Source of the DNA: Ancylothrix sp. D3o
GTDB lineage: Bacteria; Cyanobacteriota; Cyanobacteriia; Cyanobacteriales; Oscillatoriaceae
Reading direction: 5' to 3'
NCBI RefSeq assembly: GCF_025370775.1
Contig: NZ_JAMXEX010000002.1
Span: 186,001-250,000 of the forward strand
DNA: 64,000 nt
The notes beneath the pieces are model-generated. The model did no database searches, had not been told where the DNA came from, and was given only the letters and a program-made list of their open reading frames with translations. Each line of letters starts with the position of its first letter. Position 1 is the stretch's first letter. This document shows positions 6,803 through 45,796 of the stretch, in pieces. Made by a program: the position numbers and the translations under genes.

Positions 6803-7486
6803 TTAACAGTAACGAGAAATATCTTCCCCGCGTTCATCGGCAAGATAAGATAAAGCCCGGAAACGTAACCCCACCAGTTGATCATAAAGCGGGTTGAGTT
6901 TACACATCGGCGGAATGTGGACGATTTTATGGCCAAAGAGTTTAACATCCCGCTCAAACGGACATTGCGGCGGAATCATCTTGCACAAAAACCGCGCTAC
7001 TCTCGGATCGTGAATTTCTAATTGCTCCATCCAATCGCGTACTGGATGCAGCAGATCCAAATGGTGTTTTTTCTGGGCCGGTGAAAGAGCAGTTTCATGC
7101 GGGGGAGTCGATTCTCCATCCCACAACGTATGCCGTAAAGCCTCAATTGCGTCAATTTTTTGCCCCAAAGCTTCACAAAATTGCTGCAACGTTTCCGCTT
7201 CGCTGCTCGAGTACACCCCATCGGCGATAGCTACCATTACTGCTGTTCTTAAAAAGTTTTCCGCCAAAACTGGATCTTTGCCCAAAACAGCGGCTAATTC
7301 TTGCGCGGACACCGGCTCAAGGGAACCCAACTCTATGCAGGGTGCTAATTCGCTTTGAGTCAAATCAGCAATTAGGTCTTGTTCTTCCTGATCAAAGTGT
7401 CCGTCTGCCCAAGCTATCGTCAGCAGTCCTCGCAACCATACAGAAATTTGTTCAATTGTCAAGGGTGATTTTACAACACTTGTCAT
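6803..7486 (-). CDS. TerB-like protein with Mo-dependent nitrogenase C-terminal domain
   Basis: 227 residues, two parts. Residues about 10-115 resemble the helical TerB/DjlA-type domain (TIAWADGHFDQEEQDLI, VAIADGVYSSSEAETL), with acidic loops that in the family can bind metal. Residues about 135-227 match the domain named Mo-dependent nitrogenase C-terminal (Mo-nitro_C) in cyanobacteria (HPVRDWMEQLEIHDPRVARF, IPPQCPFERDVKLFGHKIVH, MCKLNPLYDQLVGLRFRAL). Despite the name this domain occurs widely in cyanobacteria that do not fix nitrogen, so no nitrogenase link is claimed. Function unknown. ATG at 7486 is the only sensible start, just before the TerB part. Confidence 0.78.
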   Translation of the reverse strand: MTSVVKSPLTIEQISVWLRGLLTIAWADGHFDQEEQDLIADLTQSELAPCIELGSLEPVSAQELAAVLGKDPVLAENFLRTAVMVAIADGVYSSSEAETLQQFCEALGQKIDAIEALRHTLWDGESTPPHETALSPAQKKHHLDLLHPVRDWMEQLEIHDPRVARFLCKMIPPQCPFERDVKLFGHKIVHIPPMCKLNPLYDQLVGLRFRALSYLADERGEDISRYC

Positions 7487-16986: not shown

Positions 16987-18015
16987 ATGTCGCAGCCTTT
17001 AATTATTACGGGAATGCACCGTTCTGGAACTTCTCTTTTAGCTTCTTTTCTGCAAGTTTTGGGGGTGAATATTGGCGAAAATTTATATGAGGCGGATGCT
17101 TTTAATGTGAGGGGGTATTTTGAGGATGTGGATTTTTTGGAGTTTCAAAGGGGGGTTTTACAAAAGTGTTGCCGGTGTGATGATGGGGGCTGGATTGATT
17201 GGGGTTGGACGGAAAGTGAGAGTTTAAATCGGGAAAAGTTTTATGAATATGTGGAAGATGCAAAAAGGTTAATTGCGTCGCGGGATGAAAGTTTAAGTTT
17301 TTGGGGTTGGAAAGATCCTCGTACTTCTTTGATGTTGGATTTTTGGCAGGGTTTGTTACCGGATGCTCGCTATTTGTTGGTTTATCGTTTTCCTTGGGAT
17401 GTGGCGGATTCAATTTTACGGTTGAATGCGGATATTTTTAATGAGCATCCTGATTATCCTTTGCGGGCTTGGGCTTTTTATAATCGTAATATTTTGGATT
17501 TTTATAGCCGTTTTTCTGAACGGTGTATTTTGGTAAATATTAATAGTTTGTTGGAAGCGCCAGAGGTGTTAGTTAAGCTTTTGGAAACGAAGTTAAAGTT
17601 AAAAATAACGACTTCTACAGATTCTCAAAAGTTGGGTCAACTTTATGATGGGAATTTGTTTAAGAGTTTGGGTGATAGTCATCCAGTTGTGGGAATTTTA
17701 AGGCAAGTTGCGCCGCAATATTTTGCTTTGTTGGCGGAGTTGGATATGGTGGCGGATATTCCAAGTGCTTTTTCTGTGGGAAATTTTGGGGGGGAAAGTT
17801 TGCCGGCGGAAGGGTTAGTAATGTTACTCCACCGGCAATTTTTAGACTCTCAACGACAAATTAAAAATTTTTCTCAACAACAGGAAGAAAAAAACCAAGA
17901 ATTGCAGGACTTACAAAAGGAAATTTCGGCTATAAAAATGTCGAAAAGCTGGAAAGTTTCTCAAGGTTTATCGAAGTTGAAAAAAATGTTACCGCTTCAA
18001 GGGTATAATAATTAG
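16987..18015 (+). CDS. Sulfotransferase-like protein with C-terminal coiled coil
   Basis: 342 residues. The PAPS 5'-phosphosulfate loop is visible at the N-terminus (TGMHRSGTSLLASFL, about 8-22) and a 3'-phosphate-binding region at about 130-150 (YLLVYRFPWDVADSILR). Together they indicate a PAPS-dependent carbohydrate sulfotransferase of the Sulfotransfer family. Residues about 275-315 are a Gln/Glu-rich coiled coil. The tail KMSKSWKVSQGLSKLKKM is a diverged form of the SKFWKLR module found in the next genes. Likely role: sulfation of the exported glycan. It starts 4 bases after the methyltransferase and ends 24 bases before the next gene. Confidence 0.8.
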   Translation: MSQPLIITGMHRSGTSLLASFLQVLGVNIGENLYEADAFNVRGYFEDVDFLEFQRGVLQKCCRCDDGGWIDWGWTESESLNREKFYEYVEDAKRLIASRDESLSFWGWKDPRTSLMLDFWQGLLPDARYLLVYRFPWDVADSILRLNADIFNEHPDYPLRAWAFYNRNILDFYSRFSERCILVNINSLLEAPEVLVKLLETKLKLKITTSTDSQKLGQLYDGNLFKSLGDSHPVVGILRQVAPQYFALLAELDMVADIPSAFSVGNFGGESLPAEGLVMLLHRQFLDSQRQIKNFSQQQEEKNQELQDLQKEISAIKMSKSWKVSQGLSKLKKMLPLQGYNN

Positions 18016-18039
18016 GTTAGGAGGAGGAACTGATATCAA

Positions 18040-19320
18040 ATGCCTGCAACTGAAGATAGTAACTATAGTGATATCGCTGTTTCGGTGGTGATTCCTTGTT
18101 ATAACCAAGGCGAGTATATTCTTGATGCGCTTTCGAGTGTGCAAAGTTGCAATGAGCCGGTTTATGAGGTGATTATTGTTAATGATGGCTCGACGGAAGC
18201 GCTGACTTTAAAGGTTTTAAGTTATTTAAAAGATAAGGGTTATCTGGTAATTGATCAGAAGAATCAAGGATTAGCAGCGGCGCGAAATAATGGGATTAAA
18301 ATGGCGAAAGGTAGGTATATTTTACCTTTGGATGCTGATAATAAAATTCGGGCAAATTATATCCCCAAAGGAATAGAAGTTTTAGATAAATACCCTGAAG
18401 TAGGGGTGGTTTATGGGAATGCTGAGTTGTTTGGTGATAAAACCGGCATTTGGGAGTTTCCTGATTTTGATGTAAATCGCATGATCATGGGTAATTTTAT
18501 TGATGCTTGTGCGGTGATTCGCAAAAGTATGTGGGAAGATTGCGGTGGCTATGATAGCAAAATTCCTGATAAATTGGGTTATGAAGATTGGGATTTGTGG
18601 TTGGGTGCAATTGAGAAAGGTTGGAAGTTTTATCACGTTTCCCAAGTGCTTTTTGATTATCGGTTTCGGGAAGGTTCGATGGTGAGCCGGTGTAATGTTC
18701 CTGAGAATCGGCGGCAATTAATTAGATATATTTATTCTAAGCATATTGGGTTGTTTGCGGCTAATTTTATTAATGTGGCGGCGGATAAAGAGTATGCTTT
18801 TTTGAGCCAAGAAGCGTATAGTGCCGGCTGGAAATTAAAATGTGAGAATTTAGAAAAAGAGCACTTACAATTGTTGGAAAATAATGCAGAAGTCCACCGA
18901 GACTATTCACAACAGTTGCAGAATGCTAACGAAAAATTAATGCAAACTCAGGCGGAATTGCAAAATTATCAAGTTGTTTTGCAACAAACGCAAGCAGAAG
19001 TGGAACAAATGAAAAGTTTGTTTGAGCAAAGTAAAATTGCTGTGCAAGAAACGCAAATACAACTCAGTCAAATGGCGTGGGAATTATCGGAATATAAGCA
19101 ACTGCAAGCAGAAAGCCATAATATTAATTTGCAACTTAATGGCGAACTTGAGCAAAGCAAAGCCAATTATGAGACAATACAAAGTTACTTAGAACAGGCA
19201 AAAGCTGAGTTAGCGCAGGCAAAAAACCTTATAATTGCTATGCAAACCAGCAAATTTTGGAAATTGCGAAGCGCCTGGTTTAAAGTCAAGAAAATGATGG
19301 GAGTTGGTAAGGATGAGTAA
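18040..19320 (+). CDS. GT2 glycosyltransferase with coiled coil and SKFWKLR tail
   Basis: 426 residues. The GT-A domain (about 12-260) begins with VSVVIPCYNQGEYILDALSS, has nucleotide-binding VIIVNDGST and a DxD-like metal site LPLDADNK. An acceptor-side GYEDWDLWLG motif (ED...W of the GT2 family) follows. From about 275 to 395 it is a continuous Gln/Glu coiled coil. The final 27 residues are the basic aromatic module AMQTSKFWKLRSAWFKVKK. GAGGAGG about 11 bases before ATG gives a strong ribosome binding site. The next gene overlaps by 8 bases, so translation is probably coupled. Donor and acceptor unknown. Confidence 0.88.
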   Translation: MPATEDSNYSDIAVSVVIPCYNQGEYILDALSSVQSCNEPVYEVIIVNDGSTEALTLKVLSYLKDKGYLVIDQKNQGLAAARNNGIKMAKGRYILPLDADNKIRANYIPKGIEVLDKYPEVGVVYGNAELFGDKTGIWEFPDFDVNRMIMGNFIDACAVIRKSMWEDCGGYDSKIPDKLGYEDWDLWLGAIEKGWKFYHVSQVLFDYRFREGSMVSRCNVPENRRQLIRYIYSKHIGLFAANFINVAADKEYAFLSQEAYSAGWKLKCENLEKEHLQLLENNAEVHRDYSQQLQNANEKLMQTQAELQNYQVVLQQTQAEVEQMKSLFEQSKIAVQETQIQLSQMAWELSEYKQLQAESHNINLQLNGELEQSKANYETIQSYLEQAKAELAQAKNLIIAMQTSKFWKLRSAWFKVKKMMGVGKDE

Positions 19321-21715
19321 CTTGTTTGAAGATGAACAGTTTTTATCGTTAGATATTCGCACACAAAAACGTTTGGCGCGTTCACAGTTTCAATTGCAGC
19401 AAGCTGAGGCGGAAATTAATTCTTTGCGGTATCATTTGCGACAAACGCAGTTAGAATTAGACCATATTCAGCGCGTGGCTGAGCAATCTCAAACGCTGGT
19501 TTCTGCAATGGAGACGAGCAAGTTTTGGAAGTTGCGAAGTTTATGGTTTAAAGTTAAAGGAAAATTGAAGCAAGTTGTGCTTTTAAAAGGTGGGGAAAAA
19601 TCCGATAAGCTAATAGTAAATAGTGGTTTTGGGGAAGAAACACCAGCAATTAGCGAGGCGCTGACAAGATCGGAAATTTGGAAGATTGAACCGGCATCCT
19701 ATCAAGATTCTGTACCGGAAACTAGAATAAATCAGTCGTTAACTGCTCATACAAAAACTGCTGATATTATTGTTTGTGTTCACAATGCTTTAGATGATGT
19801 CAAAGATTGTCTGGAGGCGGTGGTTCGTTATACGCGGATGCCGTATAGTTTGATTTTGGTGGATGATGGCAGTGGGGAAGAAACGAGGGAATATTTAGCT
19901 AATTTTGCTGATTATCAGGGAGCAACTTTAATCCGCAACGAATCCGCCAAAGGTTATACGTTTGCTGCCAACCAAGGGTTAAATAAATCTTTTTCTAATT
20001 ATGCAATTTTATTGAATAGCGATACGGTTGTAACCCCAGAATGGCTGGATAGACTTCTGGCTTGCGCGGAATCTGATCCGCAAATAGGAATTGTTGGGCC
20101 CCTTTCTAATTCAGCAACTTGGCAATCGATTCCTGAATTGTTTAATGCGGCGGGGGATGATTGGGCAGAAAATCCGCTTCCCGAAGGTATGAGGGTGGCA
20201 GAAATGGCTCAAATTGTGGCGGAATATTCGGGGCGTTTATATCCGCGAATTCCGTTTTTAAATGGTTTTTGTTTGGCGATAAAACGGGAAGTAATAGAGC
20301 AAGTTGGTTACTTTGATGAGGTGAATTTTGGGGCGGGCTATGGTGAGGAAAATGATTATTGTTTGCGAACAAGAAAGGCCGGTTGGCAATTAGCCATCGC
20401 TGATGATGTGTATGTTTATCATCACGGTTCACGGAGTTATAATCACGAACGCCGCAAACAATTATGTGATAAGGCGAATTTGGCGCTGGCTGAAAAGCAT
20501 GGGGTTGAAATTGTTAGTGATGGGGTGGAAATTTGCCGGTTTGATCCGGTTTTGCAGGGGATAAGATCGCGTTGTCAAGTAATGTTAAAACGCCGGCAAT
20601 ATATTGAGGAAGGTAAAAAACTTTGGGAAGGAAAACGAGTTTTCTTTATTCTTCCTATTGCGGGAGTTGGGGGTGGTGGAAATATTGTTCTCCACGAAGC
20701 GGAGGCGATGATAAAAATGGGGGTGGATGTCAGAATTGTTAATTTGGCTCCTTTTAAAGAGGGATTTGAACAAGGTTATCCTGAAAATAAGGTGCCGGTG
20801 ATTTATGTGGAAAAAGAGAAGAATATTCCCTGGTTATTTCCACAATGTGATGCAATTTTCGCTACTTATTATGCCTCGGTTTTTTGGATGAATCCGCTTA
20901 CACCCGACCTCAATATTCCGATTCGGGGGTACTATATTCAAGACTTTGAACCATATTTTTTCCCCAATCAAGTCACCGATTTTATAGAGGCTTGGCTTTC
21001 CTATACTTTATATCCTGATTTGGTGCGAATTTGCAAAACAGAATGGGATCGGGAAATGGTCAAAGACCAGGTGGGAGTAGAGAGTTTTGTCGGGGGTGCT
21101 ACGGTTAATATTGATACTTACCGGCCTCGCTGTCAAAAATTACCAAATACCCCTAAAAAGCCGATACGAATTCTGGCTATGATTCGGCCAACTTCTCCGC
21201 GCCGCGCCCCAAAATTAACGATGGAAGTTTTGCGAGAAATTGACCGCCGGTATGGCGATGCGGTGGATATTGTTATTTTTGGCTGTGAGTCAAAAGAACT
21301 GGATATATTTGATTTACCGCAAGATTTTCGCTTCCAAAATTTGGAAATTTTAAACCGTTCCCAAGTTGCTTGGATAATGAATCAAATTGATATTTTTATT
21401 GATTATTCTGTGTTTCAAGCGCAGGGTTTAACGGCGATGGAGGCGATGTGTAGTGGATGTGCGATAATTGTACCCCAGCGCGGCGGGACGGGGGAATTTG
21501 TCAAACATGAAGAAAATGGGTTGATTGTGGATAGCAGTTCTCCAGAAGCTTGTCTGGCGGCTTTGGAAAGGCTGATTGTTGATGAAAATCTCCGCACGAA
21601 AATTCAGCGCCAAGCCATCAAAGATGTGTGCGAATTTTATCCAGAAAAAGGGGCTTTTTATACCTTAAAATCCTTATTTCATGGCGGGGAAATAAGAGGT
21701 GATAAAAATGCTTAA
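19313..21715 (+). CDS. Two-domain glycosyltransferase (GT2 plus GT4) with N-terminal SKFWKLR module
   Basis: 800 residues. The N-terminus is a coiled coil (about 15-60) ending in AMETSKFWKLRSLWFKVKGK (about 65-84), the same module that ends the preceding protein. A GT2 domain follows (about 145-395: IIVCVHNALDDVKDCLEA, LILVDDGSGEETRE, LLNSDTVVTPEW, GYGEENDYCLRTRKAGW). The C-terminal half (about 440-790) is GT-B like: GVGGGGNIVLHEAEAM, then the donor-side GLTAMEAMCSGCAIIVPQRGG motif with conserved Glu. The GT4 half resembles WsaF-type rhamnosyltransferases, tentative. ATG 19313 overlaps the upstream stop. It probably adds two successive sugars. Confidence 0.87.
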   Translation: MSNLFEDEQFLSLDIRTQKRLARSQFQLQQAEAEINSLRYHLRQTQLELDHIQRVAEQSQTLVSAMETSKFWKLRSLWFKVKGKLKQVVLLKGGEKSDKLIVNSGFGEETPAISEALTRSEIWKIEPASYQDSVPETRINQSLTAHTKTADIIVCVHNALDDVKDCLEAVVRYTRMPYSLILVDDGSGEETREYLANFADYQGATLIRNESAKGYTFAANQGLNKSFSNYAILLNSDTVVTPEWLDRLLACAESDPQIGIVGPLSNSATWQSIPELFNAAGDDWAENPLPEGMRVAEMAQIVAEYSGRLYPRIPFLNGFCLAIKREVIEQVGYFDEVNFGAGYGEENDYCLRTRKAGWQLAIADDVYVYHHGSRSYNHERRKQLCDKANLALAEKHGVEIVSDGVEICRFDPVLQGIRSRCQVMLKRRQYIEEGKKLWEGKRVFFILPIAGVGGGGNIVLHEAEAMIKMGVDVRIVNLAPFKEGFEQGYPENKVPVIYVEKEKNIPWLFPQCDAIFATYYASVFWMNPLTPDLNIPIRGYYIQDFEPYFFPNQVTDFIEAWLSYTLYPDLVRICKTEWDREMVKDQVGVESFVGGATVNIDTYRPRCQKLPNTPKKPIRILAMIRPTSPRRAPKLTMEVLREIDRRYGDAVDIVIFGCESKELDIFDLPQDFRFQNLEILNRSQVAWIMNQIDIFIDYSVFQAQGLTAMEAMCSGCAIIVPQRGGTGEFVKHEENGLIVDSSSPEACLAALERLIVDENLRTKIQRQAIKDVCEFYPEKGAFYTLKSLFHGGEIRGDKNA

Positions 21716-22787
21716 AGTCCATATCCTTTACGAATATGGTGGAGATTTAAACCCTTTTTCTTGTTCACAAATTCGTTTGCTGCGTCCTCTCACTCACCCC
21801 CTTAATGACAAAATAAATGTGAGTTGGGGACGCAGTTATGAGCCGGCGGATGTGGTGATTGTTGATCGCTGCTGGAAACCGGGTATTTCGGTGGAAGTGG
21901 CGCAGGAATTGGTGGATAAAATTAAAGCTAATCAAGGTTGTTTAATTTATTCCATTGATGACAATCTTTTAGATTTAAAAGTTGAGGGGATAATTCGCAG
22001 CGGACTGTCACAAGAGCAGTTAATGGTGGTGCGTTATTTTCTTAGGGAAGCTGATGCGGTGATTGTTTCTACCGAACAGTTAAAACAGCGTTTTTTGCGG
22101 TTAAATCCTAATATTTTCGTGATTTCAAATACATTAGATGAGCGGTTATTAGAGGGGGTAAATATACCTCCCCAAGCGCTATCTAATCCGCGTAAAGTGA
22201 TTGGGTACATGGGAACTTATACCCATGATGCTGACATTATGATGGTGTTACAAGCGTTGCGAGAAACACTGCGTAAATATCAAGATAAGCTGGAGTTGCA
22301 GTTACTTGGTGGCATTTCTGACATTGCAGTTTTGCAGGGCTTTGAAGGGTTGCCGGTGCGCGTTATCTGTATAGAAGACAAAACTGTTCAATATCCAGAA
22401 TTTATGCCTTGGATTGTCAAAAACTTAGAGTGGGATTTAGCAATTGCGCCGTTAGAAGATACTGTTTTTACACGCTGTAAATCGGATATTAAATTTCTTG
22501 ATTACAGTGCGTTGGGAATTGCGGGGGTTTATAGTCGGGTGCCAGCTTATGAAAACACTGTCAGGCATTTAGAAACCGGCTATTTAAGCGAAAATAATAC
22601 TCAATCTTGGCGGGAAGCATTGGAGTTATTATTATTTGATGATGCGCTGAGGCACAAATTAGCAACTCAGGCCCAAGAATATGTATTTTCTAGTAGAATT
22701 TTGCAGCAGTGCGCGGTACAATGGCAAAATGCAATTTTGTCAGTGGTGGAAAGACCTAAAACAAAAATGTTAACTACTATTCGATAG
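21708..22787 (+). CDS. GT4-like glycosyltransferase
   Basis: 359 residues, GT-B fold. It opens with LKVHILYEYGGDLNPFSCSQ and ADVVIVDRCWKPG. The mid region has the DAVIVSTEQLKQRF and FVISNTLDE elements typical of the inter-domain part of GT4 enzymes, and the C-terminal donor side has GYMGTYTHDADIMMVLQAL and WDLAIAPLEDTVFTRCKSDIK split by conserved residues. ATG 21708, with GAGGTG upstream, overlaps the previous stop by 8 bases; an in-frame GTG three codons earlier is less likely. No coiled coil or SKFW module is present. Sugar specificity unknown. Confidence 0.83.
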   Translation: MLKVHILYEYGGDLNPFSCSQIRLLRPLTHPLNDKINVSWGRSYEPADVVIVDRCWKPGISVEVAQELVDKIKANQGCLIYSIDDNLLDLKVEGIIRSGLSQEQLMVVRYFLREADAVIVSTEQLKQRFLRLNPNIFVISNTLDERLLEGVNIPPQALSNPRKVIGYMGTYTHDADIMMVLQALRETLRKYQDKLELQLLGGISDIAVLQGFEGLPVRVICIEDKTVQYPEFMPWIVKNLEWDLAIAPLEDTVFTRCKSDIKFLDYSALGIAGVYSRVPAYENTVRHLETGYLSENNTQSWREALELLLFDDALRHKLATQAQEYVFSSRILQQCAVQWQNAILSVVERPKTKMLTTIR

Positions 22788-22799
22788 TTAAGGTACTTT

Positions 22800-23615
22800 A
22801 TGAAGTTTGAAACAGTTTTAGCTTCTCTAAAAAGTTATCCAGTACCAGAGGGGTTTTTAAGTTCTCCGTTTCTTCTCCCAGAAGATGTGATTTCTGACGT
22901 TTACAAATTTATTGTAGATAATAAACTTCGTTCTTGCATTGAATTGGGAAGTGGTTTCGGTGCCACCAGTTGCGTCATGGGCGCAGCGACGGAAGAAATC
23001 GGCGGAAAAGTATTAACGGTTGATATGTATTTACATCAGCCGGTGAATGGAGAGGTTTTAAAAAAACATACCGGCATCGGCGATAGTTTAGAAATTGCAG
23101 TTGATAAACTCGGCTATAACTGGTATTTGGCTGATTTAATTGCCCAGCAAACAAAAAACGGAATTTGTGAGCCTTTATTTGATTTTTGTCTATTAGATGG
23201 CGCTCACGAGTGGTCGCCTGATGCCTTAGCATTTTTTTTAGTAGCTAAACTCATTAAACCGGGTGGATGGATTGTTTTAGATGATATTAATTTTACGCTC
23301 AGAAGTGTGCCCAACTGGCAGCAAGAATTTGGTCATTATACTGATAAAGAATTAGATAGCTTTCAAGTGGGAATGGTGTACGATTTAGCAGTGCGTCAAC
23401 ATCCCGATTTTCAAGATTTTCGGATCACCCATAACGGCAGAATTGGCTGGGCGAAAAAAGTGGATAAATCTTGTCAAAGTCAATTACAAGAAACTCAAAC
23501 GCAATTGCACCAGGCACAAACTTTAATTAAGGCAATGGAAAGCAGTAAGTTTTGGCAACTCAGAAGCGCTTGGTTTAAAATCAAACAAGCTGCCGGTTTG
23601 AAGGAAAAAAATTAA
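22800..23615 (+). CDS. Methyltransferase (Methyltransf_24-like) with SKFW tail
   Basis: 271 residues. Motif I CIELGSGFGATSCVMGAA, strand-2 VLTVDMY, and FDFCLLDGAHEWSPDALAFF with KPGGWIVLDDI resemble the Methyltransf_24/cephalosporin hydroxylase-like SAM enzymes that O-methylate sugars or small molecules. A short coiled coil (about 222-240) leads to the tail AMESSKFWQLRSAWFKIKQ. This puts the module on a methyltransferase as well as on glycosyltransferases. It starts 12 bases after the previous gene and ends 15 bases before the next, so it belongs to the same transcript. Confidence 0.84.
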   Translation: MKFETVLASLKSYPVPEGFLSSPFLLPEDVISDVYKFIVDNKLRSCIELGSGFGATSCVMGAATEEIGGKVLTVDMYLHQPVNGEVLKKHTGIGDSLEIAVDKLGYNWYLADLIAQQTKNGICEPLFDFCLLDGAHEWSPDALAFFLVAKLIKPGGWIVLDDINFTLRSVPNWQQEFGHYTDKELDSFQVGMVYDLAVRQHPDFQDFRITHNGRIGWAKKVDKSCQSQLQETQTQLHQAQTLIKAMESSKFWQLRSAWFKIKQAAGLKEKN

Positions 23616-23630
23616 GAAGGAGAAACGATA

Positions 23631-25184
23631 ATGGAAATAATAGATGAGCATTTTGTGCCTCTGGCCGGTTTAGATTTAGAAACCTATCTTAACAATCAAG
23701 ATGTGGGCGGAGTTCACCATCTTATCCGCTATATTTGGGCCTTAGAAGTTTTGGCAGATTTATCACCTTTAAATTGCGTTTTAGACATTGCTTGTGGCTC
23801 CGGATATGGTAGTTATTTGATTGCCAAAAAATTCCCAAATCTCAGCGTAATGGGAGTTGATTATGACACCAGCGCTATAGAATATGCTCAACAAAATTAT
23901 CAGTTACCAAACTTGCAATATAAACTCGGAGACGGTACGCGGTGGCAAGAAACAATAGGCAATACAAAATTTGATTGTATCCTTAGTTTTGATACCCTAG
24001 AGCACGTCGTCCACCGCGAAATTATGATGCAAAATTTGGTGGAGCATTTAGAAAGCACCGGCTCTTTGCTTTTTTCAACGCCTTGTAGCGGAGATTTAGA
24101 ATTAGAACCCAACTGGGAATATCACAAAATTGAATATTCCGCCGCCAGTTTATATAACTTTTTAAGCCGTTATTTCCGCACAATTTATCATAGTGAAGAT
24201 GATTCCTTGCCCCACATAAACGTTTTTAACATCTTAAAAGAAAGAAACTTACGCTATTGCTTAAAAATGAATCCCGTTGTCTGCCAAGATCCAATTTTAA
24301 TAACTAATCCTTATCTAAAAATCTCAAAAACCAACTTGATTTTAACAGAAACAAACTTAAAAATTGATCTCGGCTGCGGCTCGTGTAAAAAACCTGGAAC
24401 ATTGGGCTTGGATATCCATGCTCAGCCGGGGGTAGACTATGTGGTAAATTTTGAAAAAGACCCCCTACCTTTCGCTGATCAAGCTGTACAATCTGTTTAT
24501 TCTTCTCACTGCTTAGAACATCTTTCTAATCCCATTAAACTGTTTCAAGAAATTAGTCGAGTTTGCCAAGATCGAGCAACTTTAGAATTTTGGACACCCT
24601 ACGCCTGGGAGAATTCCGCTTTCATTATTGACCACAAAATGTTTTTTAATGAAGATCACTATTACCATATTTGTCTGTGGTTTGTTGATTTTTGGAAAAA
24701 CATTTTAAACACTCGTTGGGTGCTAAAAGAATTCACTTATATAATAGAACCGGCAACCCTTACCGAACTTTATGAAAACAAAATTGACTTAGATTTTGCC
24801 ATCAAATACTATAAAGGAATCGTCAAAGAATTTGGCACAACCATAGAAGTATGCCACACAGAACCCACCACTATTTCTGAATATAAAAGAACCTTTGCAG
24901 TAAATCGATTTGAAACAAGATATCCCATCCATTCCCCATCAATTCCCCCTACCGATGAGAAATTGAAACAAGCATTAGAATGGTTTTCTCAACAAACAGA
25001 TCAGCTTGAAAAAATACCGAATTCGCTTCAACCATGCTTAAATTTATATCAAAAACAATACCAACAAACTTTGATACAATTAGAGCAATCCCAAGAACTC
25101 ATAAAAGCAATGGAAAATACAAAATTTTGGAAACTCCGCAAGGCTTGGTTAAATATCAAGCAGGCGTTGCAATTAAGTAAATAA
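23631..25184 (+). CDS. Tandem-domain methyltransferase with SKFW tail
   Basis: 517 residues with two class I methyltransferase-like domains. Domain 1 (about 35-210) has CVLDIACGSGYGSYLIA and VMGVDYDTSAIEYA, plus ILSFDTLEHV. Domain 2 (about 240-390) has KIDLGCGSCKKPGTLGLDI, VYSSHCLEHLSNP and a later WTPYAWEN region, the pattern of cluster-associated enzymes of the Methyltransf_11 kind. A coiled coil leads to the tail AMENTKFWKLRKAWLNIKQ. Two active sites suggest two methylation positions, or that one domain is regulatory. GAAGGAGA about 8 bases before ATG supports the start. Confidence 0.83.
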   Translation: MEIIDEHFVPLAGLDLETYLNNQDVGGVHHLIRYIWALEVLADLSPLNCVLDIACGSGYGSYLIAKKFPNLSVMGVDYDTSAIEYAQQNYQLPNLQYKLGDGTRWQETIGNTKFDCILSFDTLEHVVHREIMMQNLVEHLESTGSLLFSTPCSGDLELEPNWEYHKIEYSAASLYNFLSRYFRTIYHSEDDSLPHINVFNILKERNLRYCLKMNPVVCQDPILITNPYLKISKTNLILTETNLKIDLGCGSCKKPGTLGLDIHAQPGVDYVVNFEKDPLPFADQAVQSVYSSHCLEHLSNPIKLFQEISRVCQDRATLEFWTPYAWENSAFIIDHKMFFNEDHYYHICLWFVDFWKNILNTRWVLKEFTYIIEPATLTELYENKIDLDFAIKYYKGIVKEFGTTIEVCHTEPTTISEYKRTFAVNRFETRYPIHSPSIPPTDEKLKQALEWFSQQTDQLEKIPNSLQPCLNLYQKQYQQTLIQLEQSQELIKAMENTKFWKLRKAWLNIKQALQLSK

Positions 25185-25220: not shown

Positions 25221-27176
25221 ATGACGCGGGTGATGGGCGGAATAAAAAGCTTGGCCAAAATAGCCATAAAAGGAGTTTTACATCCAGAAAAACTATTCAA
25301 AGTAGGGGGCAAAATTTACCGTGCATGGCAAGCCGGCGGACTTAAAGAAATTGCCAAAAAAACCCGCCAATATATCCAAATTAAAACTCAACCCAACAAT
25401 AATCCTATCCCCACCGGCCCCACTTATAATGATATCTGGCTGCAAGCAAAACGCAAATTTGACCAAGAATCAACCCCCCAAATTATTGAACGCATCCAAA
25501 AACTCCACCGCCAGCCCCTAATTTCAATTTTAATCCCCGTTTATAACACATCCGAAAAATGGCTAAAAGAGGCCATAGAATCTGTTTTAGCGCAACTTTA
25601 CCCCCATTGGGAACTGTGTATTGCAGACGACGGTTCAAGCCTACCTCACGTTAAAAAAATTCTTCAAGAATACACCCGCCAAGACTCCCGCATCAAAGTA
25701 GTTTTTCTCGCAAAAAATAGCGGCATTTCTGTAGCCTCAAACCACGCCCTCAAAATAGCCACCGGCGAGTTTATTCTCTTAATGGATCACGACGACTTGT
25801 TAGAAAAACAAGCCTTATATCGCGTGGCCGAATCAATATTAGAAGACTCCCCCGATCTGCTTTACTCGGATGAAGTTTTAATAACAGAAAACGGAGAAGT
25901 CAGAGACTTTGTTTTTCGGCCTCAATTTTCCTTAGAATTTTTGAGATCCCACCCTTACATCGTTCACCTTGTTGGTTTCAAAGCCGAATTATTAAGAAAC
26001 ATCGGCGGTTTTCGCAATGAATTAACCATTTCCCAAGATTACGACCTGATTTTGCGAGCCTGCGAACAAGCCAAATGTATCGTCCATATTCCCGAAATTC
26101 TTTACTGCTGGAGACAACATCAAACAAGTGCCGGTCACCAAAAACAACATCAAGTTATGGAAATATCTAAAAGCGTCATTTCTCAACACTTAAAACGCTG
26201 TAATGAGCAAGGAATAGTTGGCGAAATGTGCTTTAACTTTTTTCAAGTTCGTTACAAGTTACAACCCAATCAAAAAATAGCTATCATTATTCCTACAAAA
26301 AATTGTGGTGAGCTTGTCCGCCAGTGCATAGAAAGCATTGAAACCACCGTCAAAGATATCGATTTTGATATTATTTTAATCGATCACGCTTCAGATGACC
26401 TCGATTCTTTAGAATACTTTTACTCGCTAAAAGACCGGCACAAAGTTCTCCGTTATGAAGCGGCATTTAACTTTTCTGCTATCAACAACTGGGCAATTTC
26501 TCAGCTAAACACCCAAGATTATACCCACTATCTTTTCTGTAATAACGACATCGAAGCCATTGAAGAAGGCTGGTTAAACCGGCTCCTCGAACTCGTCCAA
26601 AAACCCGATATTGCCATTGCTGCACCCAAATTAGTTTACCCCGACCGTAACACAATTCAACACGCCGGTGTCGGAATTGGCATTAACATATATGCCGAAC
26701 ACTACGGTAAATTTCTCCCCAACAAATCCCCAAACGGCAACTTTGAACATGGCTATTATGGCACATTTGTTATTAACAAAGAAGTCTCCGCAGTTACCGC
26801 CGCTTGTATGTTAATGCGAAAAGATGCCTTTGAAAAAATAGACGGTTTTGATGAAAACTTTGCTGTTGGTTTTGGGGATGTTGATTTATGTTTGCGAACC
26901 CGACAAGCCGGTTATCGTATTATCTTTTGTTCTCAATCTCTTCTCATTCATCACGAATCTTACACCAGAGGAAAAACCCTTGATGGAATAGATAAACATC
27001 CCCACGATACAGCCTTATTCATGCAAAAATGGCAGCCTTTCATAGAAGCCGGTGATCCCTATTTTCACCCCAACTTTTCCCACTTCAGCACATCTTGGGA
27101 AATTAAACAACCTTTAGAAATTAAACTTGATATTAACCGGCGCGTTTACAAAACCCAGGGGAATCTTTATGACTAA
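25221..27176 (+). CDS. GT2 glycosyltransferase with two GT-A domains (paralogue 1)
   Basis: 651 residues. The N-terminal 50 residues are basic and amphipathic (KIYRAWQAGGLKEIAKKTRQ). GT-A domain 1 (about 98-330): ISILIPVYNTSEKWLKEAIE, CIADDGSS, LMDHDDLLEKQ, with QDYDLILRACEQ. GT-A domain 2 (about 352-620): IAIIIPTKNCGELVRQCIESI, ILIDHASDD, FCNNDIEAIEEGWLNRLLEL, and GFGDVDLCLRTRQAGYRI. Each has its own metal-binding acidic motif, so two transfers are likely. It resembles O-antigen and S-layer glycan rhamnosyl/mannosyltransferases. It overlaps the next, paralogous gene by 8 bases. Confidence 0.87.
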   Translation: MTRVMGGIKSLAKIAIKGVLHPEKLFKVGGKIYRAWQAGGLKEIAKKTRQYIQIKTQPNNNPIPTGPTYNDIWLQAKRKFDQESTPQIIERIQKLHRQPLISILIPVYNTSEKWLKEAIESVLAQLYPHWELCIADDGSSLPHVKKILQEYTRQDSRIKVVFLAKNSGISVASNHALKIATGEFILLMDHDDLLEKQALYRVAESILEDSPDLLYSDEVLITENGEVRDFVFRPQFSLEFLRSHPYIVHLVGFKAELLRNIGGFRNELTISQDYDLILRACEQAKCIVHIPEILYCWRQHQTSAGHQKQHQVMEISKSVISQHLKRCNEQGIVGEMCFNFFQVRYKLQPNQKIAIIIPTKNCGELVRQCIESIETTVKDIDFDIILIDHASDDLDSLEYFYSLKDRHKVLRYEAAFNFSAINNWAISQLNTQDYTHYLFCNNDIEAIEEGWLNRLLELVQKPDIAIAAPKLVYPDRNTIQHAGVGIGINIYAEHYGKFLPNKSPNGNFEHGYYGTFVINKEVSAVTAACMLMRKDAFEKIDGFDENFAVGFGDVDLCLRTRQAGYRIIFCSQSLLIHHESYTRGKTLDGIDKHPHDTALFMQKWQPFIEAGDPYFHPNFSHFSTSWEIKQPLEIKLDINRRVYKTQGNLYD

Positions 27177-29022
27177 TTTATTCTCAAAAATCCAACATTT
27201 CTCCAAGCGCAGCTACGAAGTATGGCAACAAAAAGGCCCGCGAATTGTTGTAGCAAAATTTTTCAGAAAACTTTCTTTTAAACTAGAACCCGAAGCACTA
27301 ATCAGCCAAAACCAAAAAATATTTAATAACAGTTTATATTACGAATGGTCTAGCCGCAACGTCCCCAGACCCGCCGACTTAAACCAAATGTCAGAAATCG
27401 TGCAAATTTTCCAATACCGGCCCCTCATCAGCATCATCATGCCGGTGTATAACACCCCCGAAACTTACCTTCGAGAAGCCATAGAATCGGTTTTAAATCA
27501 AATTTATCCTAATTGGGAATTGTGCATCGCTGATGATAGCTCAACCGAACCTCATATTCAAACAATTTTAAAAGAATATGCCCAAAAAGACACCCGAATA
27601 AAAATAAAATTTCGACTAGAAAACGGACATATTGCCCGCGCATCAAACTCAGCCTTAGAACTAGCAACCGGCCAATTTATTGCCCTACTCGATCACGACG
27701 ACTTACTCACCCCAGATGCCTTATATCAAGTTGCCTTACTTTTAAATCAGCACCCCGAAGCTGATATGATTTACTCTGATGAAGACAAAATTGATGAAAA
27801 TAACACCCTCAAAGATCCCTTCTTCAAACCCGATTGGTGTCCCGATTCTTTCCTTTCCAGAATGTACACTTGCCACCTGGGAATTTACCGGCATTCTCTT
27901 ATCAAAGAAATCGGCGGATTTCGGGCCGGTTATGAAGGCAGCCAAGACTACGACCTTGTATTAAGACTAACCGAAAAAACAAACAAAATCTATCACATAC
28001 CCAAAATTTTATATCACTGGCGAATTCATCCCCAATCCACCGCCACCGGCACCGGCACCGTCAAATTATACGCCTATCAAGCCGCCGAAAAAGCCATCAC
28101 GGAAGCCTTACAAAGACGCGGAGAAAAAGGCAAAGTCAGCGGCGTACCAGACTACTTAGGACACTATATTATCCGCTACACAATTGATGAATATAAACCC
28201 GTTAGCATCATCATTCCCACCAAAGATCAACACCAACTCTTAAACCAATGTTTGACCTCAATTTTTACCAAAACCCTTTACCCAAACTATGAAGTAATTC
28301 TCATCGACAACAACAGCGAACAACCCGAAACCGCCGAACTTATTAACAAATGGAAAACTAAAGAACCAGACAGATTTAAATCTCATCGCTTAGATATTCC
28401 CTTCAACTTTTCCAAAATCAATAACTACGCTGTCACCAAAGCAAAAGGAGATTATTTACTATTTTTAAACAACGATACAGAAGTCCTCACCCCCGACTGG
28501 ATAGACGCATTAGTAGAACAAGTTCAGCGGCCAAAAATAGGAGCAGCCGGTGCACTTTTGCTATACGAAAATGATACAATTCAACACGCCGGCATCATCC
28601 TGGGAATAGGAGGAGTAGCCGGTCACAGCCACCGGCATTTTCCAGCCGACACTCCCGGCTATGTTTGTCAAGTAAAAACCATCAACAATTACCTCGCAGT
28701 CACAGGCGCTTGCTTAATGTGCCGGCGCGAAGTATTTGAAAGCATAGGAGGATTCAACGAAGACTTAGCAGTAGCATATAACGACGTAGATTTATGCTTA
28801 AAAATGATAGCAAAAGGCTATAGAAACATCTATCTACCCCACGTCATTTTGTACCATTACGAATCAAAAACCAGAGGCTACGAAGACACCCCAGAAAAAG
28901 AAGCCAGAAGGCAAAAAGAAGCCAACATCCTCAAAAGCCGATGGCCGCAATTTTTCCAAAACGATCCCTGCTACAACCCCCATTTAACCAAAGACAGAGA
29001 AGACTACAGCATAAACCTATGA
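27169..29022 (+). CDS. GT2 glycosyltransferase with two GT-A domains (paralogue 2)
   Basis: 617 residues from ATG 27169, which overlaps the previous stop as ATGACTAA. Organisation copies the upstream gene: amphipathic start (RSYEVWQQKGPRIVVAKFFR), GT-A domain 1 (ISIIMPVYNTPETYLREAIE, CIADDSST, LLDHDDLLTPD, DEDKIDE), GT-A domain 2 (VSIIIPTKDQHQLLNQCL, ILIDNNSEQPE, LFLNNDTEVLTPDWIDAL, AYNDVDLCLKMIAKGYR). The clear resemblance across the whole length indicates tandem duplication followed by divergence. Likely adds further sugars of the repeat unit or adaptor. The next gene overlaps its stop by 4 bases. Confidence 0.88.
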   Translation: MTNLFSKIQHFSKRSYEVWQQKGPRIVVAKFFRKLSFKLEPEALISQNQKIFNNSLYYEWSSRNVPRPADLNQMSEIVQIFQYRPLISIIMPVYNTPETYLREAIESVLNQIYPNWELCIADDSSTEPHIQTILKEYAQKDTRIKIKFRLENGHIARASNSALELATGQFIALLDHDDLLTPDALYQVALLLNQHPEADMIYSDEDKIDENNTLKDPFFKPDWCPDSFLSRMYTCHLGIYRHSLIKEIGGFRAGYEGSQDYDLVLRLTEKTNKIYHIPKILYHWRIHPQSTATGTGTVKLYAYQAAEKAITEALQRRGEKGKVSGVPDYLGHYIIRYTIDEYKPVSIIIPTKDQHQLLNQCLTSIFTKTLYPNYEVILIDNNSEQPETAELINKWKTKEPDRFKSHRLDIPFNFSKINNYAVTKAKGDYLLFLNNDTEVLTPDWIDALVEQVQRPKIGAAGALLLYENDTIQHAGIILGIGGVAGHSHRHFPADTPGYVCQVKTINNYLAVTGACLMCRREVFESIGGFNEDLAVAYNDVDLCLKMIAKGYRNIYLPHVILYHYESKTRGYEDTPEKEARRQKEANILKSRWPQFFQNDPCYNPHLTKDREDYSINL

Positions 29023-29759
29023 ACCCCCATTTCCTAATAATTGGAGCCCAAAAAAGCGGCACCACATCCCTCTACAATTACCTCATCCAACACCCCCAAA
29101 TATCCCCAGCTAAAACAAAAGAAATACACTTTTTTGACCTAAACTATCATCAAGAAATCGACTGGTATAAAGCCCAATTTCCCCAACAAGCCGGCCAAAA
29201 CACCATAACCGGAGAATCCAGCCCCTACTACCTATTTCACCCCCGCGTACCCCAGCGAGTACACCAACACTTTCCCCAAATAAAACTCATCATCCTTCTC
29301 AGAGAACCCGTAGCAAGAACCTGGTCACATTACCATCACGAAATACGCTTAAAATACGAAACCCTTAGCTTTGAACAAGCCATCGCCAGCGAACCCCAAA
29401 GACTCCAAGGAGAAACCGAAAAACTCCTAGCAGAAGACAATTATTACAGCTTCAACCACCAACATTATAGCTACCTGGCACGAGGAATCTACCACCAACA
29501 AATCAAAAACTGGCAGCAATATTTCCCGAAAGAGCAAATTTTAATCCTCAAAAGCGAAGATTTTTATGCCAACCCTGCCCAAACTCTCAACCAAACCTTA
29601 GAATTCCTAGAAATCCCGCCCCATACCATAGAAAGCTATCCAAAATACAACAGCGGCAGCTACCCAGAAATCTACCCCGCCACCAAACAATACCTAATAA
29701 ACTACTTCCAACCCCACAATCAAAAACTCGCCAAAGATTTAGGAATAACTTTTTGGTAA
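29019..29759 (+). CDS. Carbohydrate sulfotransferase
   Basis: 246 residues. The PAPS-binding loop IIGAQKSGTTSLYNYL (about 7-22) with catalytic-type Lys 12, and the 3'-phosphate loop LIILLREPVARTWSHYHHE (about 92-110) are textbook for the Sulfotransfer_1/3 family, which includes heparan-type N-sulfotransferases. It should transfer sulfate from PAPS to a sugar of the exported polysaccharide. ATG 29019 is embedded in the ATGA stop overlap of the upstream glycosyltransferase. No coiled coil or SKFW tail, unlike the other sulfotransferase of the cluster. Sulfated exopolysaccharides are known in cyanobacteria. Confidence 0.9.
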   Translation: MNPHFLIIGAQKSGTTSLYNYLIQHPQISPAKTKEIHFFDLNYHQEIDWYKAQFPQQAGQNTITGESSPYYLFHPRVPQRVHQHFPQIKLIILLREPVARTWSHYHHEIRLKYETLSFEQAIASEPQRLQGETEKLLAEDNYYSFNHQHYSYLARGIYHQQIKNWQQYFPKEQILILKSEDFYANPAQTLNQTLEFLEIPPHTIESYPKYNSGSYPEIYPATKQYLINYFQPHNQKLAKDLGITFW

Positions 29760-45412: not shown

Positions 45413-45796
45413 TTGGAACCGCAAGAAATCCCCACTGAAAAAATTAAAGAGAAACTGCGCCAGACTTTAGCAGCGGATATTTTTGGGGTTTCCAATCAAC
45501 ACCCGCCGGCAGCAGATGAAGATGAGGATATTGTAATTTTAAAAACTGGCTTTGATATTTACAATATCCCCATCACTTCTTATCAAAAATTCATGCAACC
45601 GGTTATCATTGGTCTGCGAAAGTTTGTTAGAAAGTTGTTGAAGCCGGTTTTGGAAAGACAAGTTATTTACAACTTTACTAATACACAAATTCTTCAATCT
45701 TTAAGGAAAGAAGTTAAGGTTTTAAAGGAAAATCAAATAAAATTAGAGACTCAAATACAACAACTGCAAACTGAATTGGAAAAATTGAAAAGGTAG
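45413..45796 (+). CDS. Small basic/coiled-coil protein of the glycan region
   Basis: 127 residues, not recognised. Residues about 1-50 are polar (PQEIPTEKIKEKLRQTLAAD). About 60-85 is a basic amphipathic stretch (VIIGLRKFVRKLLKPVLERQ), and the last 45 residues are a clear coiled coil (LQSLRKEVKVLKENQIKLE). This arrangement resembles the N-terminal anchor plus coiled coil that precede catalytic domains in cyanobacterial glycan enzymes, but here it stands alone, perhaps as an adaptor or membrane-docking partner. Start TTG 45413, with AGGGTGAAAA-type weak Shine-Dalgarno upstream. Close to rfbA, so probably co-transcribed. Confidence 0.6.
   Translation: MEPQEIPTEKIKEKLRQTLAADIFGVSNQHPPAADEDEDIVILKTGFDIYNIPITSYQKFMQPVIIGLRKFVRKLLKPVLERQVIYNFTNTQILQSLRKEVKVLKENQIKLETQIQQLQTELEKLKR

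Follow-up and report, generated by a model that had tools for sequence, protein, structure and literature searches.

The coiled-coil molecular ruler of WbdD, the methyltransferase-kinase of Escherichia coli O9/O9a, is a textbook case, described for one pathway in a few enterobacteria. The ruler, the membrane association and the polymerase recruitment of WbdD are taken here from the literature, in which the coil is reported to be followed by a C-terminal membrane-associated amphipathic helix and a polymerase recruitment site, while coil length is reported to determine chain length (PMC11231755, PMC3482155, PMC6286764). A trimeric helical bundle in WbdD has also been described (PMC3482155). In Klebsiella O7 and O12 the order is terminator, coil and polymerase, and cyanobacterial relatives of Klebsiella O7 ORF6 have been reported (PMC11231755). 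Here, a stretch of 64,000 nucleotides from the cyanobacterium Ancylothrix sp. D3o, referred to as the window, was analyzed with regard to a short basic aromatic segment, SKFWKLRxxWFKxK, which is carried by five different enzymes and is termed the tail (KFW form). With a probability of roughly 0.7, a widespread module of glycan assembly dependent on ATP-binding cassette (ABC) transporters, situated at the end of coiled coils, is represented in cyanobacteria by the tail, which is then the same element as that at the coil end of WbdD.

An earlier note on this DNA had described four near-identical segments and a diverged copy on a sulfotransferase, and all five are found in frame, as written there, in the open reading frames of the window. 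A profile built only from the tails of other genomes matched exactly five of 1127 stop-to-stop frames, which bears out that description. The independent E-values (i-E) of the four clear copies lie at 2e-11 to 6e-14 (5.9e-14, 1.4e-13, 1.8e-12 and 2.1e-11), that of the sulfotransferase copy is 0.0078, and the next frame follows at 0.59. All of the features given here are located on the forward strand. In the GT2 glycosyltransferase at 18040..19320, a long coiled coil at the C-terminus leads into the tail AMQTSKFWKLRSAWFKVKKM (19237..19296, with SKFW at 19249). In the GT2-GT4 protein at 19304..21715, coil and tail are N-terminal, the tail AMETSKFWKLRSLWFKVKGK standing before the glycosyltransferase domains (19505..19564, SKFW at 19517). 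The methyltransferase at 22800..23615 (PF13578) and the double methyltransferase at 23631..25184 (PF08241 twice) each have a C-terminal coil and tail, namely AMESSKFWQLRSAWFKIKQA at 23532..23591 (SKFW at 23544) and AMENTKFWKLRKAWLNIKQA at 25107..25166 (SKFW at 25119). The sulfotransferase at 16987..18015 (PF13469, Sulfotransfer_3) ends in the diverged tail KMSKSWKVSQGLSKLKKM (17935..17988), reading SKSWKVSQGLSKLKKM at 17941, behind a coil-like stretch with approximate limits at 17809..17934. Taken alone this copy is weak (E = 0.0018 with the iterated profile described below, 0.0078 with the window left out), and closer intermediates are present in other loci, such as EIATLKMSKVWKLRSKLAKLKKIL.

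Beyond these five copies, a profile search of the whole 6.57-Mb genome returned none that was significant (next E = 0.83). All copies in the genome are therefore those of the window, within approximately 7.3 kb of each other and downstream of an exporter pair, a Wzm-like ABC-2 permease (PF01061, 13707..14591) and a Wzt ATPase with the C-terminal carbohydrate-binding domain Wzt_C (PF14524, 14667..16040). A weak fifth BLAST match in the genome, on contig 7, was taken as chance; its frame has stops a short distance upstream. Over 60 bases, the four clear copies share 57-75% of their nucleotides, and only 2-6 of 8-13 identical residues other than Met and Trp share their codon. The codons have thus diverged while the residues were kept, which indicates a conserved protein and led to the rejection of a DNA repeat or a recent duplication. 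The segment is not covered by Pfam or NCBIfam models in the proteins of the window, and the same applies to NCBIfam for WbdD. A structure search gave no matching solved structure for the tail, and a literature search for the literal motifs gave unrelated papers only, none of those found printing the motif.

Among 386 genomes of the phylum, 78 matched a profile of the four tails at E ≤ 0.001, often with several matches per contig. Eighty stretches around such matches were taken together with the window (81 loci), with 20 stretches from the same genomes as controls. With the iterated profile, 132 copies were detected, distributed over 131 proteins; 127 of the copies lie outside the window, and the 20 control stretches contain none. 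The tail is C-terminal in 104 of the proteins, N-terminal in 6 and internal in 21. In an alignment of 89 hosts, the mean column identity of which is 7%, it is essentially the sole conserved part, and the motif Trp is invariant. The hosts belong to several methyltransferase families, GT2, GT4 and Sulfotransfer_3 by Pfam, with single cases of others such as PhyH. Within the loci, 26 of 33 Sulfotransfer_3-like proteins are tailed, as are 40/91 Methyltransf_11-like, 44/125 GT2-like and 36/108 GT4-like proteins, while none of 12 members of the other sulfotransferase family (PF00685 type) in the tail loci has a tail. Two or more tailed proteins occur in 32 of the 81 loci, and in 26 of these 32 at least two unrelated kinds of enzyme are tailed, GT2 and GT4 being counted apart. 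At least 12 changes of tail state are required on the methyltransferase tree and at least 18 on the GT2 tree, in which gain is indistinguishable from loss and for which the loci had been selected by their possession of a tail; therefore the tail moves on and off its hosts. The proposal that it is a transferable module on unrelated enzymes is supported by these results, and the confinement to a single enzyme family that the earlier note had named as contrary to its view was not found when cyanobacterial genomes were searched and fused domains recorded. A search of plasmids with short peptides gave one match in Nostoc, and none for the form of the motif found in other bacteria (see below). A protein of 1042 residues in another locus (L048:8543-11671) has two tandem coil-plus-tail units at its C-terminus.

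The core of the tail reads S (92%), K (97%), F (94%), W (100%), K (71%), L (73%), R (95%), x, x, W (93%), F (69%), x, Phi and K (83%, otherwise mostly R). The earlier note had each copy preceded by a coiled coil. A coil-like stretch stands before the motif in 85% of the 131 proteins, compared with 6.8% of random positions, so that this holds for most copies; the criterion is crude and misses the coil of the window's GT2 protein, which is matched by Pfam coiled-coil models at approximately residues 271-402. By the same crude criterion, some tails have a short or undetectable coil. Coil length was 44.5 residues in capping enzymes and 31.5 in glycosyltransferases (p = 0.012), a small difference by a crude measure, and therefore no claim of a ruler is built on coil length. 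The 18-residue core has a net charge of approximately +5.4 and is rich in Trp and Phe, with a HeliQuest-type score above 1.34 in 130 of 132 tails. AlphaFold2, run on tail fragments only, predicted for the last 68 residues of the methyltransferase at 22800-23615 two helices, at 2-45 and 47-61, interrupted at a single residue, the conserved Ser 46 (predicted local distance difference test score, pLDDT, 87, from a five-row alignment).

It can be observed that the tail is linked to ABC-transporter-dependent export. Wzt_C is matched strongly (E below about 1e-15) in 48 of 78 tail genomes and in 19 of 308 others, and in the genomes with Wzt_C, 60 of 84 tail copies lie no more than 20 kb from it, in 39 of the 48 genomes. 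Wzm is encoded in 50 of 81 tail loci compared with 1 of 20 control loci, these associations coming from tests that ignore phylogenetic relatedness and, for the loci, from few controls. The link to wzm/wzt that had been expected from the window alone is thus strong in the sample, and an occurrence without link to glycan loci, the second outcome named as contrary, was not what was found.

A related element is present in other bacteria. The motif SWRxTAPLR, known from such bacteria, was searched in the genome collection by exact matching of a DNA pattern and was found in at least 120 stretches; its fixed letters are conserved by construction, the surrounding positions not so. Among the matches listed, 77 of 80 are in frame, and the element SxSWRPhiTAPLR stands mostly after a coil-like stretch and typically no more than about 20 residues from the C-terminus or before further domains. 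Bacteria with this element include Pseudomonadota, Actinomycetota, Acidobacteriota, Bacillota and others. In a profile-profile comparison, the two forms align in register (E = 1.5e-5). Helix was predicted by AlphaFold2 for both, with the break at the conserved Ser in the cyanobacterial form only. In Burkholderiales, where the SWR tail was identified by profile, Wzt_C is present in 17 of the 21 genomes that carry this tail and in 26 of the 99 that do not; 16 of 23 SWR-tail copies are located no more than 10 kb from it. The SWR tails of other phyla therefore resemble the cyanobacterial tail in their place after a coil, in their C-terminal position or position before further domains and, as tested in Burkholderiales, in their linkage to Wzt_C. 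They differ in having TAPLR in place of xxWFxxK and in being rare in the phylum of the window (4 of 386 genomes); conversely, the KFW form was matched in 1 of 120 Burkholderiales genomes, by a single frame of 38 amino acids.

The same element is found at the coil end of WbdD. The O9 cluster of E. coli HS contains wzm, wzt, wbdA and a gene for a WbdD of 708 residues, identified from its genomic position, its length and what has been published on WbdD, the record naming only a class I SAM-dependent methyltransferase. The segment QQLRQEIEKIHRSRSWRMTKGYRYLG of this protein holds SRSWRMT at residue 592, and the coil-like run extends up to this point. The SWR profile matched it at 1.5e-5, the sole significant match in the 49-kb region (next 1.7), and it was also the best match there of the KFW profile, at 0.46. 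WbdD and the tailed enzymes thus have in common a catalytic head, a coiled coil and a conserved element at the coil end. In WbdD, the gene of which adjoins wzm/wzt, the element S-x-S-W-R-Phi-T is followed by a long, membrane-proximal C-terminal region and there is one such protein per locus, whereas in the window the tail is of the KFW form, is carried by five different enzymes and in most cases is followed by no more than about 20 residues. The locus of the window also encodes Wzm and a Wzt with a carbohydrate-binding C-terminal domain, joins capping-type enzymes (two methyltransferase proteins and the sulfotransferase) to a coil, and has, at the presumably membrane-proximal coil end, the element that connects with WbdD through the SWR profile. 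It is probable that these methyltransferases and this sulfotransferase cap chains.

The order of domains in fused cyanobacterial proteins agrees with the published order of Klebsiella O7 ORF6 and O12 WbbB, in which terminator, coiled coil and glycosyltransferases form one chain. Capping-type domains (sulfotransferase, methyltransferase) stand N-terminal to the tail in 15 of 20 cases and C-terminal to it in 5 of 25 (p = 3e-4), the counts being summed family tallies that assume no protein to have both. Sulfotransfer_3 stands before the tail in 26 of 26 cases, as do most methyltransferases, and glycosyltransferases predominate after it. The likeness to the Klebsiella proteins is one of domain order, and the cyanobacterial modules are mostly split into separate genes.

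On the basis of these comparisons, the following arrangement can be proposed. A parallel coiled coil would oligomerize the enzyme and space its catalytic head from the base of the coil. The helix S-K-F-W-K-L-R-x-x-W-F-x-x-K would set that base at the inner membrane face, within the Wzm/Wzt assembly complex, the equivalent base helix being S-x-S-W-R-Phi-T in WbdD and S-x-S-W-R-Phi-T-A-P-L-R in many other bacteria. As any enzyme could be attached in this manner, a locus may gather capping enzymes (methyltransferases and a sulfotransferase) and some glycosyltransferases at one spot. The window would then encode a WbdD-like assembly complex spread over separate genes, each enzyme with the same coil-end module. 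On this account, the segment itself would contact the membrane or a partner, and the tailed proteins would assemble into a single complex.

Several observations weigh against this account. The hydrophobic moment of the tail is no better than that of shuffles (median shuffle p = 0.28), and its lipid-binding score derives from charge. The strongly amphipathic stretch of WbdD, at approximately 612-633, comes after SRSWRMT without overlap; therefore the element may be a junction rather than an anchor. When the profile of one form meets single sequences of the other, the cross-match between KFW and SWR is weak. Strong Wzt_C is absent from 30 of the 78 tail genomes, and in approximately 30 of the 81 tail loci the retrieved stretch contains no Wzm; among the membrane proteins of these loci, no common alternative exporter was seen and no flippase or polymerase family was prominent. 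The neglect of relatedness and the few control loci likewise reduce the weight of the associations. The suggestion of the earlier note that the tail is a membrane- or scaffold-docking tag gains from WbdD, the published C-terminal region of which is membrane-associated and recruits the polymerase and which has the same element at its coil end, yet the tail, although strongly basic and aromatic, is no more amphipathic than shuffles. That enzymes gather at the exporter is favored by the genetic linkage, which is linkage and not localization, and is weakened by the loci without Wzm. Overall, the docking idea is supported in large part, and the tailed enzymes would represent a further variation on the architecture of WbdD.

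The explanations that concern what the tail contacts are refinements inside this account, and the weights given to them are not meant to sum to one. It is possible, though tentative, that the segment is a specific address tag, attachable to almost any enzyme and read at the ABC-transporter assembly site by one conserved receptor, which could be a lipid carrier or one of the proteins of the assembly complex. The lineage dialects would then be SKFWKLRxxWFKxK for cyanobacteria, SxSWRxTAPLR for many other phyla and SRSWRMT for WbdD. The near-invariance of K (not freely exchanged with R), F, W, R and the second W whatever the enzyme, the weak amphipathicity and the split of the two forms between lineages all favor such a tag, but the receptor is so far only postulated, it need not be encoded next door in view of the loci lacking Wzm nearby, and descent could also yield the dialects. 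A plain membrane anchor, that is, a basic aromatic interfacial helix with no specificity for a partner, appears rather doubtful. The charge, the Trp and Phe content, the HeliQuest-type scores, the predicted helix and the membrane association of the WbdD region are what such an anchor would display, whereas the hydrophobic moment is not, and the conservation of exact residues exceeds what physicochemistry needs. Together, the invariant K, W and R and the weakly amphipathic character of the tail hint that it is recognized specifically and does not act as a generic membrane helix.

Less probable still is a cap, with no external partner, by which a dimeric or trimeric coiled coil is closed and kept in register at its end; it agrees with the position of the segment at the coil end in most proteins and with the trimeric bundle of WbdD (PMC3482155), but leaves the linkage to Wzt and the invariant basic residues unexplained, and the segment is also seen with a short or undetectable coil. 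Locus-specific docking pairs, in which the tails of one cluster recognize each other, are disfavored as very improbable. Several tailed proteins per locus, as in 32 of 81, would suit them, but tails are no more alike within a locus than between loci (0.497 and 0.482, permutation 106/1000), which leaves such pairs unsupported and speaks for a common target. The probability that a DNA repeat or recombination hot spot left the segment behind as a coding remnant with no role in the protein is practically negligible: it does recur in neighboring genes, but codons differ while residues are kept, and conservation across many genomes is in protein, not DNA.

Some further genes of the window may be recorded. 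A second sulfotransferase, of the PF00685 type (28941-29759), has no tail, and its start overlaps the upstream GT2 gene. The GT2 proteins at 25221-27176 and 27127-29022 start with basic helical stretches, such as FKVGGKIYRAWQAGGLKEIAKKTRQYI, which by eye resemble the region after the tail in fused proteins and residues 612-660 of WbdD. A protein of 127 residues with a coiled-coil-like end and no Pfam match (45413-45796) is encoded among sugar-nucleotide and glycosyltransferase genes. A TerB-like protein with a Mo-dependent nitrogenase C-terminus domain (6803-7486) and the circadian gene ldpA are also present, the latter in keeping with a cyanobacterium.

With a coil-end signature that extends across phyla, members of glycan assembly complexes become recognizable by sequence. 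The signature of the tail could predict which enzymes act together and in what order (cap, coil, polymerase), and it opens direct tests of how such complexes are held at the membrane. In engineered glycan synthesis, the tail may serve as a compact tag by which enzymes are brought together.

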